Positions 35,981-44,191 of a stretch of DNA of 64,000 nt are shown here, one piece after another. A program made the translations under genes and the position numbers. Each line of letters begins with the position of its first letter. The first letter of the stretch is position 1. Source of the stretch: Fimbriimonadaceae bacterium (lineage in GTDB: Bacteria; Armatimonadota; Fimbriimonadia; Fimbriimonadales; Fimbriimonadaceae). The DNA lies in assembly GCA_024710805.1 (NCBI GenBank), contig JANJUB010000169.1:1-64000 (forward strand), written 5' to 3'. The notes under the pieces are model-generated. The model was not told the DNA's origin, did not search any database, and worked only from the letters and a program-made list of their open reading frames with translations.

Positions 35981-36457
35981 ATGGACGAACTCCGCGAACC
36001 AGAATCCGCCGCGCATTCGTCTGAAGGGGAAACGTTTGAGTGGACGGTACGCCTATGGAAAGAGAACCCGAAACGACTAGGAGCCATCGCGCTGACCGCG
36101 CTGATTGCGGGCATCTTCGGGTTCTGGGCGTTGCGCCATCCGGTCGGGTTTCTCGTCGGCGTCGCGATGATCGGGCTGTCCTCGGCAGATTTCTGGATGC
36201 CGATTCACTTTCAGCTGACGCCTCAAGAAGCGAAGCGGCGGGTCGGTCCAAGTCTGAGTTCAATCGCATGGGCAGATGTCCAGCAGGTGCGAGAGGATGA
36301 ACTTGGTGCTAAACTATCGCCGCTACGCGATCCGTCGAGCCGGCTTGAGTCCTTTCGAGGAATCTATCTGCGGTACGACGGGAACCGCCAGGCGGTCATT
36401 GAGCGAATCCGTAGTCAAGTAGGGGAGTCATGCAAGATCTCTGGGCCGAAGAACTGA
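35981..36457 (+). CDS. hypothetical membrane protein, YcxB-like
   Basis: TM pair then 'IHFQLTPQEAKRRVGPSLSSIAWADVQQV'. Confidence 0.55.
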   Translation: MDELREPESAAHSSEGETFEWTVRLWKENPKRLGAIALTALIAGIFGFWALRHPVGFLVGVAMIGLSSADFWMPIHFQLTPQEAKRRVGPSLSSIAWADVQQVREDELGAKLSPLRDPSSRLESFRGIYLRYDGNRQAVIERIRSQVGESCKISGPKN

Positions 36458-36732
36458 CGGAAGACGAGACCGCTGCCCTGATTGAGAAGGCGGCGGCGGC
36501 GATTGAAAAGCGCGGCATGGTTACGCCCGCTGTCCTCATGTTTGAGATGCACAAGCCGTTGGCCTTCATCGGAGCCCAAACGGCGATCACATTTTCTCCG
36601 TTCATCGTGCCCTTTCTGGGGTTCGATAACGTCAACGACTATACTCGCCTGTTTTCCAAGCGGGAAAACATCGAGCGACTGCTCGCGCGGCTGGATCGCG
36701 GTGTGGCGATCCAAGGGGCTACGGAGGGTTAA
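36430..36732 (+). CDS. conserved hypothetical, first gene of unknown membrane operon
   Basis: 'RGMVTPAVLMFEMHKPLAFIGAQTAITFSPFIVPFLGFDNVNDYTRLFSKRENIERLLARLD'; 1-nt overlap with next gene. Confidence 0.75.
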   Translation: MQDLWAEELTEDETAALIEKAAAAIEKRGMVTPAVLMFEMHKPLAFIGAQTAITFSPFIVPFLGFDNVNDYTRLFSKRENIERLLARLDRGVAIQGATEG

Positions 36733-37601
36733 TGCAATACTTTGACACCGGAAAATATCAGGTGCTCTTCGTGTTGGTCATGGTGGCTTTCATCCTGATC
36801 AACATCTTTAGAGCCCAGAATAAAGACATCTTCATTCGCCGCATTGCGGGACTGAACGCGATCGAGGACGCGGTCGGCCGCGCCACGGAAATGGGCAAGC
36901 CCGTTCTGATGGTGCCTGGCTTGGGCGCGTTGAACGCGATCTCCGTTCAGGCGTTGAACATCTTCGCGCACATCACGCGAACCGCCGCGCGGTTCGCGAG
37001 TCCGATCCGTCTCTGTTGCGGTGAAGCCGCGGTCTTCGCGGTGGCGCAAGAGGTCATCCGCGACGTCTACCAGTCAGAAGGCGTGCCGGAGCGGATGGAC
37101 GGCGACAGCGTGCGCTTCGTCAGCGACCGCCAGTTCGCTTTTGCGGCCGGCGTCTCGGGCATCATGCTCCGTGAGCAGACGGCGGCGACCTTCTTTATGG
37201 GCGAGTTCTTCGCCGAGTCGCTGATCTTCGCCGAGACCGCGAACTCGATTGGCGCGATTCAGGTTGCCTCATCGACGGAGAACACGCAGACGCCCTTCTT
37301 CATCGCAGCGTGCGACTACGTTCTCATCGGTGAAGAGTTCTACGCCGCAAGCGCTTACCTCACCCGAAAGCCCGTTCTCGTCGGAAGTCTGGTCGGGCAG
37401 GACTGGGGCAAGATGCTCATCGCCTCGCTCATCCTATTCGGCATTGGGCTTGAGTCGTCTCAGCGCAAGGGTTGGGTCGAGCAGATGGAAAGCGATCCCG
37501 CGGCGAAGACCTCGATGATGCGGTTGTTCTCGCCCGAACCGCCGGATCCCGCGACGAAGCCGGTTCGCCAGAAGCATCCGGAGGAAGGTGAAGCACAGTG
37601 A
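36732..37601 (+). CDS. DUF6754-like membrane protein
   Basis: 'MGKPVLMVPGLGALNAISVQALNIFAHITRTAARFASPIRLCCGEA' ... 'LIGEEFYAASAYLTRKPVLVGSLVGQDWGKMLIASLILFGIGLES'; family name from memory. Confidence 0.65.
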   Translation: MQYFDTGKYQVLFVLVMVAFILINIFRAQNKDIFIRRIAGLNAIEDAVGRATEMGKPVLMVPGLGALNAISVQALNIFAHITRTAARFASPIRLCCGEAAVFAVAQEVIRDVYQSEGVPERMDGDSVRFVSDRQFAFAAGVSGIMLREQTAATFFMGEFFAESLIFAETANSIGAIQVASSTENTQTPFFIAACDYVLIGEEFYAASAYLTRKPVLVGSLVGQDWGKMLIASLILFGIGLESSQRKGWVEQMESDPAAKTSMMRLFSPEPPDPATKPVRQKHPEEGEAQ

Positions 37602-38497
37602 TCCCCTGGTCTTTTGAAAGTGGCAGTACTCCGCTCAAGATCGCGATCTTCGTGACGCTTGCGTTGGGTTTTGGCCTCTTCTTCGCATTGATGAAGACGC
37701 CGCCGAGGCTCCGGCCAAAGATTGCGGCGACGTTCACGTTCCTTGCCGGTTTGCTCTACGTTGGCATCTGGCTTTGGCCTACGGCCCACGGCCGCGAGGC
37801 TGGGGACATCCCCGCAAACTTCACCGAGGGTGTTGCGTTCTGGCTGGAGGACACGCAAAGCCAGTTCCAGAACCTAAGCAACATTCTCACCTCGTTCCTC
37901 CTGCTCATGGGTGTGTTCTCGCTGGTCCGGCTCCACGCCACCCGAGTCTCCAAGCAGCAGCGAGACTGGCCTTTCAGCCTGGTTCTGCTCATCTGCGTCG
38001 CCCTCATGACGTTCATCGGCTACTGGGACTGGCTGACCGTCATGAACATGAAGCCCGAAGAGCTTGAGGCGATGAGGGACGTAACGAACCAGCCGTTCGC
38101 GGTCTGGATGAAGGACCTGCTCTTCGATGGCCTGCTGCAAACGATGGAGGCGGCGATGTTCTCGATCATCGCGTTCTACATCCTTTCGGCCGCCTATCGT
38201 GCGTTCCGCGTTCGATCGGTCGAGGCGACGATCTTGCTCGCGTCGGCGATCATCGTCATGCTGGGCTTGCTCGGTATGGCTGAGAACTATTGGTCGATCA
38301 TGATCGACAATATGGGCGGGCTTGAAGACCCGAACGCCTTGGTCAACAACTTGCGGCTTGAAGCGATCACGCAGTTCATCCGCGACAACCTGCAGACGCC
38401 TGGTCTGCGCGCCATCGACTTCGGTGTCGGTGTCGGCGCGCTGGCGATGGCCCTGCGACTCTGGCTCAGCCTCGAGCGAGGAGGGTCGACTAGCTAA
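37598..38497 (+). CDS. hypothetical polytopic membrane protein
   Basis: Multiple TM helices; ATGA-type overlaps with both neighbours. Confidence 0.75.
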   Translation: MIPWSFESGSTPLKIAIFVTLALGFGLFFALMKTPPRLRPKIAATFTFLAGLLYVGIWLWPTAHGREAGDIPANFTEGVAFWLEDTQSQFQNLSNILTSFLLLMGVFSLVRLHATRVSKQQRDWPFSLVLLICVALMTFIGYWDWLTVMNMKPEELEAMRDVTNQPFAVWMKDLLFDGLLQTMEAAMFSIIAFYILSAAYRAFRVRSVEATILLASAIIVMLGLLGMAENYWSIMIDNMGGLEDPNALVNNLRLEAITQFIRDNLQTPGLRAIDFGVGVGALAMALRLWLSLERGGSTS

Positions 38498-39459
38498 TGG
38501 CAACTCCACAAAAAGTTCCGGGCAGCCTGAACATACCGCGTGAGGCGCTGTTCGCCGCCCTATTCGTCGTCTGTTCGGTTCTGGTCTTTGTCAGCATCGA
38601 ACTTCCCAACCGAGTGAGCAATAACTCGGCGGATCTGTACAAGGTCCTGAAGGGGATCGACAAGACCAAGCCGGTTATCCTGCAAAGCGACTGGACGAAG
38701 AGCACGCGCGGCGAGAGCGGCGCGCAGTTCGACGCTCTGGTCCGCATCCTCATTCGAGAGCGGGTGAAGATCGCGCTGATGTCGGGTGCGGATCCGCAAG
38801 CACCAGAGGTCGCCCGTGAGGCGATTCGCAGAATTGCCGTGGAAACGGAGAAGGTCACGGGCCAACCCTACAAGCAGTGGGAAGACTGGGTCTTCATCGG
38901 CTTCTTCCCTGGCATCGAGGCCTCGCTCCAATCGTTCTCCAGCAACCTTCGGAATGCGCTGTCGGCCAACAAGGACAGCGACACGGCGGGCGTCAAGCGG
39001 TCGGTCATGGAATCGCCGGTCTTCAACGGGATCAACCGGATCGAAGACATCAGCGCGTACATCATCGTCACCGCCTCGAAGACAAGCCGGATCGCGATCG
39101 AGCGGCTTTCGGGCAAGGTCACGATGCTCGGGCTGGTCACCGGCGTTATGGGTCCCGAGACCTACAACTACTACCAGAGTGGCCAGTTGAGCGGGTTGGC
39201 GATCGGGCTGAAGGGTGCCTACGACATGGAGTCGATGATGGCCTACGGTCTGAACACGCCCGATGGGGAAGGAGTGATCAAGGTGAGCAACGCCAAGGTC
39301 ACCGACCCGATCGAGGGTTACACCGGTGAGCAATATGTCAACTTGGCGAATGGCCAGAAGTACATCGTGCCCTTGCATGGCGCGATCATCCTGCTCATCA
39401 CTGCCATCGTGCTTGGAAACATCGAGACCATTCGGCAGCGCCGACGGAGGAACGGATGA
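38497..39459 (+). CDS. hypothetical protein with N- and C-terminal TM helices and large soluble domain
   Basis: 'ALFAALFVVCSVLVFVSIEL' near N-term and 'HGAIILLITAIVLGNIETIRQRRRR' at C-term. Confidence 0.75.
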   Translation: MATPQKVPGSLNIPREALFAALFVVCSVLVFVSIELPNRVSNNSADLYKVLKGIDKTKPVILQSDWTKSTRGESGAQFDALVRILIRERVKIALMSGADPQAPEVAREAIRRIAVETEKVTGQPYKQWEDWVFIGFFPGIEASLQSFSSNLRNALSANKDSDTAGVKRSVMESPVFNGINRIEDISAYIIVTASKTSRIAIERLSGKVTMLGLVTGVMGPETYNYYQSGQLSGLAIGLKGAYDMESMMAYGLNTPDGEGVIKVSNAKVTDPIEGYTGEQYVNLANGQKYIVPLHGAIILLITAIVLGNIETIRQRRRRNG

Positions 39460-40190
39460 ACCCGGAAACCTATTCGCTCATCAAACTCACGCTAGGCGTC
39501 ATCGCGACGTTCGGTCTCTATAGCGTTCTCTATCGGGAGAACAAGTTCTATCGGTTCTGGGAACACGTGTTCTTGGGCCTGGCCGGCGGATGGGCGCTCG
39601 TTGCCCTCTGGAAGGAGACCCTCAAGCCGAGTTGGTACGACAAGATGGCTGGCTCCATCCCCGAGGCGGGTGGCGAGGGCACCCCAGGCTACTTCGTCTG
39701 GGCCATCCTCCTGCCGATCGGCATGATGGGCTACATGGTCTTCAACAAGAAGCACGCCTGGATGAGCCGGATTCCGATCGGCATCATTCTCGGTATCTGG
39801 TCGGGACAGCAGCTGCTCAACTTCTGGCGAACGTATTCGCCGCAGTTCCGCAGTTCGATGCCCACCATCGTTCCCACCCGGTGGGAGTTCATGCAGCCCG
39901 CAGCCACGCCCGAGAACTTCACGGACTTGGCCCGTCACACGTACATCAGCGAAGCGATCGGCAACTTGATCGCGGTCATCACCGTCTTGGCGGTCCTCAG
40001 CTACTTCATCTTCAGTATCGAGCTGAAGAGCAAGTTTATGCAGGGCGTTACCAAGTCGGGCCGCTACCTGCTGATGATCGGCTTCGGAGCGATCTTTGGA
40101 TCGACGGTCATGATGCGGTTCACGCTGCTCATCGACCGCATGTACTTCATCTGGGTGGAGTGGATGTCTCAGAGGCTGCTTGGCAACTGA
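39456..40190 (+). CDS. hypothetical polytopic membrane protein
   Basis: Several TM helices; overlaps upstream gene by 4 nt. Confidence 0.75.
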   Translation: MNPETYSLIKLTLGVIATFGLYSVLYRENKFYRFWEHVFLGLAGGWALVALWKETLKPSWYDKMAGSIPEAGGEGTPGYFVWAILLPIGMMGYMVFNKKHAWMSRIPIGIILGIWSGQQLLNFWRTYSPQFRSSMPTIVPTRWEFMQPAATPENFTDLARHTYISEAIGNLIAVITVLAVLSYFIFSIELKSKFMQGVTKSGRYLLMIGFGAIFGSTVMMRFTLLIDRMYFIWVEWMSQRLLGN

Positions 40191-41448: not shown

Positions 41449-41479
41449 TGCGATGGATTGTAGCGGATACAATGCCCCC

Positions 41480-44191
41480 ATGAAGCGGCTGGTGGGACTC
41501 ATCACAGGATTGGCGGCGACCGCGCTGGGCTTTGCGCAGTTCACGATCGACGAGAAGAAGGGAATCGAGCAGGCCCTGTACATCGGGAACCTGACGCTGA
41601 AGGACCTGAACTTCGCTCGGCGTCCATTTGCCGACAAGTACCGAATCCCACTTGTCAACCAGGCGATCGATCAGCCGATCGAGGCTTCGGATGCGCTTAT
41701 GAACGCCCATGCCACCGCTGGCCGGGCGAACACGCCTGGCCTGCTCTCGCTTTCTCGGCAGCTGCTGGGGGATTCGTTGGTGGTGACCTTGCCCGAGGCC
41801 CCGAAGCTGAGCGGGGATGTGCCCAAAGAAGTACCCGCCACCGTGGCTCCTCTCGTTCGCCGCTTGGCCGAGGCGGTTGCGGGCGCCAATGCCGCCGTAC
41901 GGAAAGCGACGGAGAAGCTGAGCGCCGAGGAACAGCGGCTGCTGTTGGAGAGCTTGCCGCAGTGGGCGGTCGAAGAGCCCTCGGTCAAGTTCGAGTTCGT
42001 CAGCAAGCCGATGGCGACGCAAGCCGAGATCTTGCGGATGATCGATCAGGTGGATCTGCGCATGATCTTTGCCGCCGCGGAGCGGATGGCGCGGACCATC
42101 GAGGGCATCTTGCCCGACCTGCGCCGCATTGGCGGAGGGTCCACGTGGCAGGGATCCCAGAAGTTCCGACTGGGCGAAATGGTGATCGTTGTCGCCGGTG
42201 TAGGGGATGACGTCCACCGCGATCGTGACGCTCGCCTCGTGATCGACCTGGGTGGTAACGACCGGTACCTGGGTCGGGCGGGCGCGGGGCCGGGGTATGC
42301 GGCGCTTCTCATCGACCTCGCCGGCGACGACTTCCACAAGGCCCCGGACATGGGGCCGGGCAGCGGCCTGATGGGTATCGGGATGGCCTACGACCTCGGT
42401 GGCCACGACAACTTCCGCGGCAAGTCCCTGGCCTTCGGATCCGGCTTGGCGGGAGTGGGGGTCTTCTTCAAGGACGGCGGCAACGATACGTACCAGTCCG
42501 AGACGCTTTGCCAGGGCTTCGGCCAGTTCGGTATCGGTCTTCTGATGGACGCCCGCGGCGATGATCAGTTCGAGGCTCAGCTGTTTGCCCAAGGAGCCGC
42601 CCGGACGGCGGGCTTGGGTTGGCTGGTCGATGGCGCGGGGGATGACACCTACCGGGCCGGGGGACGCATTCTTAACTCGCCCCTCTTTGCCGATGTGCAC
42701 TACTCGTTCGCTCAGGGATTTGCCAGCGGCTACCGCGAGGACACCGGCGGCATCAGCGGCGGCATTGGTCTGCTGACGGACCGTGCTGGCGACGATGCTT
42801 ACATTGCCGAGACGTATGCCCAGGCGGCGAGCTATTGGTTCGCGCTGGGATCCCTGCAGGATTCGAGCGGCCACGATACCTACCGTGCCTACCATTACGC
42901 CCAGTCCAGTGCCATGCACATGTGTGCGGCGTACCTGATCGACCTCGCGGGCGACGACATCTACGCGACCAGCTTTGGCGCGAGCCACGCCATCGGCCAC
43001 GACTACGGCACGGCCGTGCTCTTTGACCGCGCCGGGAACGACATTTACGCCGCCCGCGACAGCCGTCCGGGGATCGGCAATGCGAACGGCCTAGGCTTGT
43101 TCGTCGATGCGGCGGGCGAGGATCGCTACGCGGGACCACCCGCAGCGGGCAATGGCGCACGGGGCAGCGGCTCGCTCGGCTTGTTCGTGGATCTCGACGG
43201 TCCTGACCAGTACCGCACGGGTCTTGCCGATGCCCAGGCTTCAGTGCGCGAAACGTGGGCGGTCGCCTATGACCAAGAATCGAAGGCGGTCGAAGTTCCC
43301 GCTGGCCAAGACCCGGCCCAAGCGCCACCCAAGGCCGGATCGGCTCCGCGTCCGACCGATGCCGAACTGCAGCAGATCTACGCGAAGGCCACGCAGTGGG
43401 GCGTCGGAACCGCGCAGCAGGAGGTTCGCGAGAACGTCCATAAGCTCATCTCCATCGGCATGCCCGCCCTAAAGTGGATGATCGAATACAAGCTGCCCAA
43501 GGCGTCGCGCCTTGAGCAGCGGGCGTTCACCGATGTCGCGAATGCGCTCGAAGCCGAGGGGCGTACGGCCATTGCTGAGCGCTTGAACAGCGACGATGCC
43601 AACGAAGTTCGGGTTGCGCTGGGCATTCTGCTCGACGCCAACGCCAAGGAAGCCGCACCGTACTTGGCCAAAGCCTTGAAGAACAAGGATACGCAACGAC
43701 TTGCCGCCCGCATGGCGGGGGTAGCCCAGAGTCGGGAGTCCGTACCGGAGCTGCAGGTGCTCGCGGGTACGGCGGAGGATCAGCTGACCGTGCTCAATGC
43801 GGTGATCGCGCTGGCCCAGATCGCCGACGCCCAGAGCTTGGGAACCGGGCAGGCGCTGATGACTCACGACAGTCTGCCGATTCGCAAAGCGGCGATCGCG
43901 CTGGTCGCCAAGTTCAGCGAGGCCCTGACGATCGCGAAGACGATGACCCTCGACCCGGATGAGCGGAAGGCGCGAATCGGGGTGGAACTGCTCGGGGCCA
44001 TCGGCTCCGACGAGGCGTTGAATGTGGTTGGACCGCTGCTGACCGACGAGCGCGTCGGCGTGCGGATCCAGGCGCTCATCGCGTTAGATGGACGTGCCCC
44101 GGCCGCATGGCAGCAGGCCGTCCTCGATCGACGGAAGGATCCAAGCCCGCTCGTGCGGGCGATCGCGATCCGCATCGATCCGGGCCGTTAG
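41480..44191 (+). CDS. large secreted protein with about 11 'DxxGDDxY' repeats and C-terminal HEAT-like repeats
   Basis: Signal peptide; repeats e.g. 'LLIDLAGDDFHKA', 'FFKDGGNDTYQSE', 'LMDARGDDQFEAQ', 'LVDGAGDDTYRAG', 'LTDRAGDDAYIAE'; C-term 'VRVALGILLDANAKEAAPYLAKALKNKD'. Confidence 0.8.
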   Translation: MKRLVGLITGLAATALGFAQFTIDEKKGIEQALYIGNLTLKDLNFARRPFADKYRIPLVNQAIDQPIEASDALMNAHATAGRANTPGLLSLSRQLLGDSLVVTLPEAPKLSGDVPKEVPATVAPLVRRLAEAVAGANAAVRKATEKLSAEEQRLLLESLPQWAVEEPSVKFEFVSKPMATQAEILRMIDQVDLRMIFAAAERMARTIEGILPDLRRIGGGSTWQGSQKFRLGEMVIVVAGVGDDVHRDRDARLVIDLGGNDRYLGRAGAGPGYAALLIDLAGDDFHKAPDMGPGSGLMGIGMAYDLGGHDNFRGKSLAFGSGLAGVGVFFKDGGNDTYQSETLCQGFGQFGIGLLMDARGDDQFEAQLFAQGAARTAGLGWLVDGAGDDTYRAGGRILNSPLFADVHYSFAQGFASGYREDTGGISGGIGLLTDRAGDDAYIAETYAQAASYWFALGSLQDSSGHDTYRAYHYAQSSAMHMCAAYLIDLAGDDIYATSFGASHAIGHDYGTAVLFDRAGNDIYAARDSRPGIGNANGLGLFVDAAGEDRYAGPPAAGNGARGSGSLGLFVDLDGPDQYRTGLADAQASVRETWAVAYDQESKAVEVPAGQDPAQAPPKAGSAPRPTDAELQQIYAKATQWGVGTAQQEVRENVHKLISIGMPALKWMIEYKLPKASRLEQRAFTDVANALEAEGRTAIAERLNSDDANEVRVALGILLDANAKEAAPYLAKALKNKDTQRLAARMAGVAQSRESVPELQVLAGTAEDQLTVLNAVIALAQIADAQSLGTGQALMTHDSLPIRKAAIALVAKFSEALTIAKTMTLDPDERKARIGVELLGAIGSDEALNVVGPLLTDERVGVRIQALIALDGRAPAAWQQAVLDRRKDPSPLVRAIAIRIDPGR

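Follow-up and report, generated by a model that had tools for sequence, protein, structure and literature searches.

The described families closest to the system considered here are DUF6754 (PF20539), a family without assigned function; MutL/GlmL (PF13941), a putative glutamate mutase chaperone; the Rossmann-like nucleotide- and sugar-binding folds; and the barrel-sandwich proteins RnfC and NqrA. The locus compared with them is a run of six plus-strand genes, named g0 to g5, at positions 35981 to 40190 of a 64,000-nucleotide stretch of DNA from a Fimbriimonadaceae bacterium of the phylum Armatimonadota (contig JANJUB010000169.1, positions 1 to 64,000; this whole stretch is referred to as the window). 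Its DUF6754 protein, g2, matches almost the entire family model, but here it is one of four co-travelling membrane subunits that are tied to an ATPase. The tentative interpretation is an undescribed inner-membrane complex that is coupled to an ATPase, has its membrane core encoded by g0 to g5 and most likely moves or assembles an envelope component. The genes are as follows, with coordinates in the window:

g0, 35981..36457, plus strand: 158 aa, with a hydrophobic segment at approximately residues 37-68 and conserved W21, W97 and R126; dN/dS 0.08
g1, 36430..36732, plus strand: 100 aa, small and mostly soluble, with invariant E39, P43 and P57; dN 0
g2, 36732..37601, plus strand: DUF6754 (PF20539), with a transmembrane (TM) helix, a Rossmann-like domain predicted to be cytoplasmic and a second TM helix; dN/dS 0.03
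g3, 37598..38497, plus strand: polytopic, with conserved H113 and a conserved loop Y200-R201-x-F203-R204-x-R206 ... E209; dN/dS 0.01
g4, 38497..39459, plus strand: TM helix, Rossmann-like domain predicted to be extracytoplasmic, TM helix and basic C-terminal tail; dN/dS 0.06
g5, 39456..40190, plus strand: polytopic, with invariant E36, R221 and R228, a YFxFS motif and a mostly conserved H37; dN/dS 0.02

The original prediction, made from the letters of the window, described a run of five overlapping plus-strand reading frames at 36430-40190. All five are present, with overlaps from g1 to g5 of, in order, 1, 4, 1 and 4 nt, but the run starts one gene earlier. The added gene, g0, lies approximately 10 nt downstream of prs and overlaps g1 by 28 nt; its family is present in 31 loci of an early-examined set, and it is the conserved first gene of the run in Armatimonadota. 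The topology first proposed was retained for g1 (small and mostly soluble), for g3 and g5 (polytopic) and for g4 (membrane helices at both ends), and was amended for g2, which was credited with an N-terminal helix only and also possesses a C-terminal one (residues 214-244 of the AlphaFold model). Purifying selection is strong on all six genes (dN/dS 0.00-0.08 against one same-genus locus), and these low values and the recurrence of the families across phyla show that g0 to g5 are real genes. Neither a sigma-70-like promoter nor a usable terminator turned up between its ends, which is weak evidence that the genes may share a single transcript.

The DUF6754 label given at the outset is correct: g2 gives a full-length Pfam match above the gathering score (E 4.7e-91; 304.9 bits against a cut-off of 27; profile positions 4-250 of 257). 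The other five proteins match no Pfam or NCBIfam family above its curated cut-off, and a match of g3 to TMD0_ABC is weak (E 0.35) and below cut-off. The earlier failure to recognise a transporter, secretion or biosynthetic family is borne out by the profile searches, which gave no characterised complex. A phage or plasmid origin was rejected, there being no match in viral contigs, phage records or plasmid records. In the open-access literature searched, the term DUF6754 occurs in no paper, no relevant paper was found on PF13941 in such a membrane-operon setting and no characterised complex matches, and the system appears to be new as a predicted system.

Conservation and joint inheritance of the components

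A scan of 84,980 species genomes returned more than 580 relatives, and locus counts are given here for the best 80 loci. These derive from Armatimonadota, WOR-3/Stahlbacteria, Poribacteria, Coatesbacteria, Cloacimonadota, Latescibacterota, Edwardsbacteria, Nitrospirota, Planctomycetota (including anammox genera) and Methylomirabilota, together with Fermentibacter-type and Zixibacteriota records. The phylum range of g2 to g5 is therefore Armatimonadota and at least 11 others, and the true range may be wider. Beside DUF6754, g3 is present in 77 of the 80 loci, g4 in 76 and g5 in 73, and the exact contiguous order g2-g3-g4-g5 on the same strand is found in 67; the remaining loci are in part cut off by contig ends or contain paralogues. 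Median gaps between g2 and g3, g3 and g4, and g4 and g5 are 12, 2 and 0 nt, respectively, and the pairwise-distance matrices of the four proteins correlate with r values of 0.83-0.91, against a shuffled maximum of 0.16. The overlapping starts and mixed topology had been read as a sign of a stoichiometric membrane complex, and the gene order in distant genomes agrees with that reading: the homologues are not scattered, and g2 to g5 stay together. In several genomes the g2-g5 set is duplicated, for example at four loci where both copies are complete and are either adjacent or arranged head to head; this suggests that Edwardsbacteria, Zixibacteria and Coatesbacteria have paralogous or hetero-complex forms.

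Two further soluble components belong beside this core. In deep Armatimonadota, two genes, X then Y, lie between g1 and g2. X encodes a protein of approximately 600 aa that matches PF13941 'MutL' (E 4e-126) and is referred to below as MutL, whereas Y encodes a protein of approximately 375 aa with a barrel-sandwich-like N-terminus and a KOW-like C-terminus (a weak SPT5 match); neither has predicted membrane segments. The arrangement g1-X-Y-g2-g3-g4-g5, with g1 upstream of MutL, is found again in other phyla, namely Nitrospirota, Planctomycetota, Methylomirabilota and Latescibacterota, and one locus (L166) has a contiguous g0-g1-g2-g3-g4-g5-X-Y. The genome of the window encodes MutL (G000:C14:44641-46140, E 3.9e-129) and has one Y match (E 3.2e-147), both away from the operon.

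Gains and losses of DUF6754, g4, MutL and Y coincide. DUF6754 is present in 220 of 251 sampled Armatimonadota genomes, among them 166 of the 179 of good quality, whereas all 14 control genomes lack it. The same 13 good Armatimonadota genomes are without DUF6754 and without g4; the 10 good genomes without Y are a subset of these 13, and those 10, plus two others, give either no MutL match or one that falls short of the cut-off. Three of the 13 retain MutL and Y, and because their assemblies are fragmented, the operon may sit in assembly gaps. The joint absences fall in approximately six lineages: genus g16 (1.5 Mb) of family f1, families f8 and f26, parts of families f11 and f13, and genus g112 of family f16. 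As a separate observation, two 1.5-Mb genomes of the window's own family, apparently a reduced lineage, are without the whole system and also without LpxC.

The pattern is repeated outside Armatimonadota. DUF6754, Y and MutL are found in an identical 22 of 118 Nitrospirota genomes, and of 36 DUF6754 genomes from other phyla, 35 possess MutL and all 36 possess Y, including genomes in which MutL or Y lies off the operon. The naive probabilities of identical sets, 1e-19 and 1e-24, are overstated owing to shared descent, the proper unit being the number of independent events.

The MutL ATPase and protein Y

All 38 MutL proteins (38/38) possess the ASKHA ATP-binding motifs DxGSTTT, DxGGATTD and GSGG, and MutL is related to the hydantoinase/reactivase ASKHA proteins. 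No ABC ATPase profile matches g0 to g5, X or Y; the partner ATPase is of the ASKHA type. It matches the full MutL/GlmL model and keeps the ATP motifs, but differs from MutL/GlmL in three respects: its length is approximately 600 aa, whereas the two matches with the highest scores, L152 and L153, measure 464 and 483 aa, respectively; it is embedded in, or lost together with, a membrane operon; and the mutase is absent from nearly all of the tested genomes. Glutamate mutase E (PF06368) is absent from the genome of the window; of the 54 genomes tested, most of which (nearly all) carry MutL, just 1 has a match above cut-off. That single genome, the source of the 464-aa L152, also has a classical GlmL match.

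The name and Pfam description of PF13941 would suggest that MutL acts for glutamate mutase or some other B12 radical mutase, and that its link to the DUF6754 operon is incidental. This is highly improbable, given that PF06368 occurs in a single tested genome, the one with the classical GlmL match, and that in many phyla the MutL gene is part of the operon, with which it also disappears. Glutamate mutase was rejected as the partner of MutL on the same count of 1/54. Because PF06368 is nearly absent from the tested genomes, PF13941 serves something else in them, most plausibly the DUF6754 membrane system.

MutL and Y also occur as one polypeptide. A MutL-Y fusion of 920 aa, an extra paralogue, is encoded at L139:17480-20242, and open frames of 920-1071 aa that match both MutL and Y are found in several genomes. 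Long MutL-Y fusions are indicated in five genomes.

Y possesses a highly conserved NGATQIRAGVIRPE stretch in addition to its barrel-sandwich-like N-terminal region. The match of Y to RnfC_N is weak (21.9 bits, under the Pfam cut-off of 25.6), as is a match to NQRA_N in a fusion protein (27.7 bits, cut-off 25). These barrel-sandwich matches are what would favour an Rnf/Nqr-like redox or ion pump in which Y plays the part of the soluble RnfC/NqrA subunit. Y differs from those proteins, however, in its lack of a conserved Cys, in the NGATQIRAGVIRPE stretch and KOW-like end, and in the company it keeps, since no Pfam match to an Rnf/Nqr membrane subunit was found in g0 to g5. No iron-sulphur Cys pattern is conserved either, g3, g5 and Y having no conserved Cys and g2 a single one. 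With neither a Cys nor a cofactor pattern conserved, a redox pump is very unlikely.

Predicted anatomy and function of the core

The AlphaFold models of g2 (pLDDT 89) and g4 (pLDDT 89, pTM 0.87) have the same layout, in which an alternating alpha/beta Rossmann-like domain stands between two membrane helices. In this they resemble the Rossmann-like nucleotide- and sugar-binding folds, but their domains are framed by membrane helices, are predicted to lie on opposite faces of the membrane and have no significant match in the PDB. A Foldseek search of the two models against the PDB gave nothing at E 0.001 and returned generic Rossmann-type matches with TM-scores of approximately 0.2-0.4; sequence searches of the PDB with g2, g4, Y and MutL gave no convincing match. 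Comparison with hhalign detected no significant sequence homology between g2 and g4 (probability 3.7%), though their register is the same, and none between g3 and g5.

Basic residues follow TM1 in 87% of 154 g2 proteins and precede TM1 in 82% of 147 g4 proteins. In addition, 106 of 123 longer, N-terminally extended g2 relatives exhibit a signal-peptide-like N-terminus, and an Fn3 domain is recognised at the N-terminus of two g2 relatives. Given the opposite charge bias around TM1 and the signal-peptide-like N-termini of g2, the g2 domain is predicted to lie inside, in the cytoplasm, and the g4 domain outside. At three Cloacimonadota loci, the DUF6754 protein is approximately 1000 aa long, with an N-terminal extension of 750 residues, and at one of these the gene before DUF6754 joins a Glyphos_transf match to TPR repeats.

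Near-invariant polar residues are dense in g2 across phyla: R36, R50, E53, Q134, E162, E168, Q177, Q186, C194, D195, Y196, E202, Q223, D224 and K227. This density would favour a membrane enzyme complex: the Rossmann-like domain of g2 would be the catalyst, acting on a substrate associated with the membrane, with MutL and Y activating or repairing it in the manner of the reactivases of radical enzymes; the kinship of MutL to the hydantoinase/reactivase ASKHA proteins points in the same direction. Such an enzyme is nevertheless unlikely, as no catalytic family was found by profile, PDB sequence or PDB fold search, and two extra polytopic subunits exceed its needs.

The median identity of the g2 domain is 49%, compared with 35% for that of g4. 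A membrane sensor or regulator would bind its ligand with the outer g4 domain and the Fn3-type domain of g2 and pass the signal across g3 and g5, so that the cytoplasmic g2 domain controls MutL and Y. This reading would account for the like layout of the two Rossmann-like domains on either face and for the signal-peptide-like N-termini (106/123) and Fn3 matches of the longer g2 proteins. It is less easily reconciled with the greater conservation of the cytoplasmic g2 domain, which is as for a catalytic or coupling core and not as for a divergent ligand sensor, or with the lack, in every member, of an output domain of the kinase, cyclase or DNA-binding type, and is considered quite unlikely.

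The leading, though unproven, function for the system is to transport an envelope substrate or to assemble one. In the proposed ATPase-coupled complex, MutL would bind and hydrolyse ATP, and Y would connect MutL to the cytoplasmic face of the core at the g2 domain, through which MutL could power or gate the core. The polytopic subunits g3 and g5 would form the membrane path, using the conserved charged residues of g5, whereas the g4 domain and, where present, the Fn3-type domain of g2 would handle the substrate outside; g0 and g1 would be accessory. The subunits would be in mutual contact. Less probably, the complex would represent a new class of transmembrane machine, in which an ASKHA ATPase, not an ABC, AAA or rotary one, drives a four-subunit core with paired Rossmann-like domains on both faces.

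Several observations weigh against the ATPase-coupled complex. The co-occurrence counts ignore kinship, and the 22 Nitrospirota genomes may constitute one clade and the Armatimonadota losses approximately six events. Several lineages hold MutL and Y apart from the core operon, so that physical contact is deduced from phyletic co-occurrence. The outside Rossmann-like domain and the strong conservation of g2 would also fit an enzyme or a sensor. The flanks, moreover, vary by group (TonB/ExbBD, aroK-aroB, thioredoxin-reductase-like, Memo) and favour no particular substrate, and LpxC, found in 44 of 47 genomes whether or not these have the system, does not track it.

A link to lipopolysaccharide was rejected, since the presence of LpxC does not follow that of the system. 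Guilt by association from the flanks was likewise rejected because neighbours are not kept beyond close relatives: glmU-prs before the run and recO after it are found in close relatives only, and the flanks differ elsewhere. At four Stahlbacteria/WOR-3 loci, the core run continues into DUF4388, ExbB, ExbD and TonB genes. Downstream of the run in the window, at 41453-44191, lies a 912-aa open reading frame with many D-x-x-G-D-D-x-Y type repeats followed by HEAT-like repeats, the product of which resembles a repetitive surface or scaffold protein.

Significance of the system

The system is near-universal and mostly single-copy in Armatimonadota, and is common to Nitrospira-group nitrifiers, anammox bacteria, Methylomirabilota and many candidate phyla, where its present annotation amounts to 'unknown function' and a misleading 'MutL'. 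The analysis joins DUF6754, three unnamed membrane families, Y and MutL as one predicted machine and corrects the reading of PF13941 for these genomes. This provides a concrete target in biogeochemically important organisms, the function of which is testable in cultured relatives. If the interpretation is true, an ASKHA-driven machine would span a dozen mostly uncultured phyla as well as Nitrospira and anammox bacteria.

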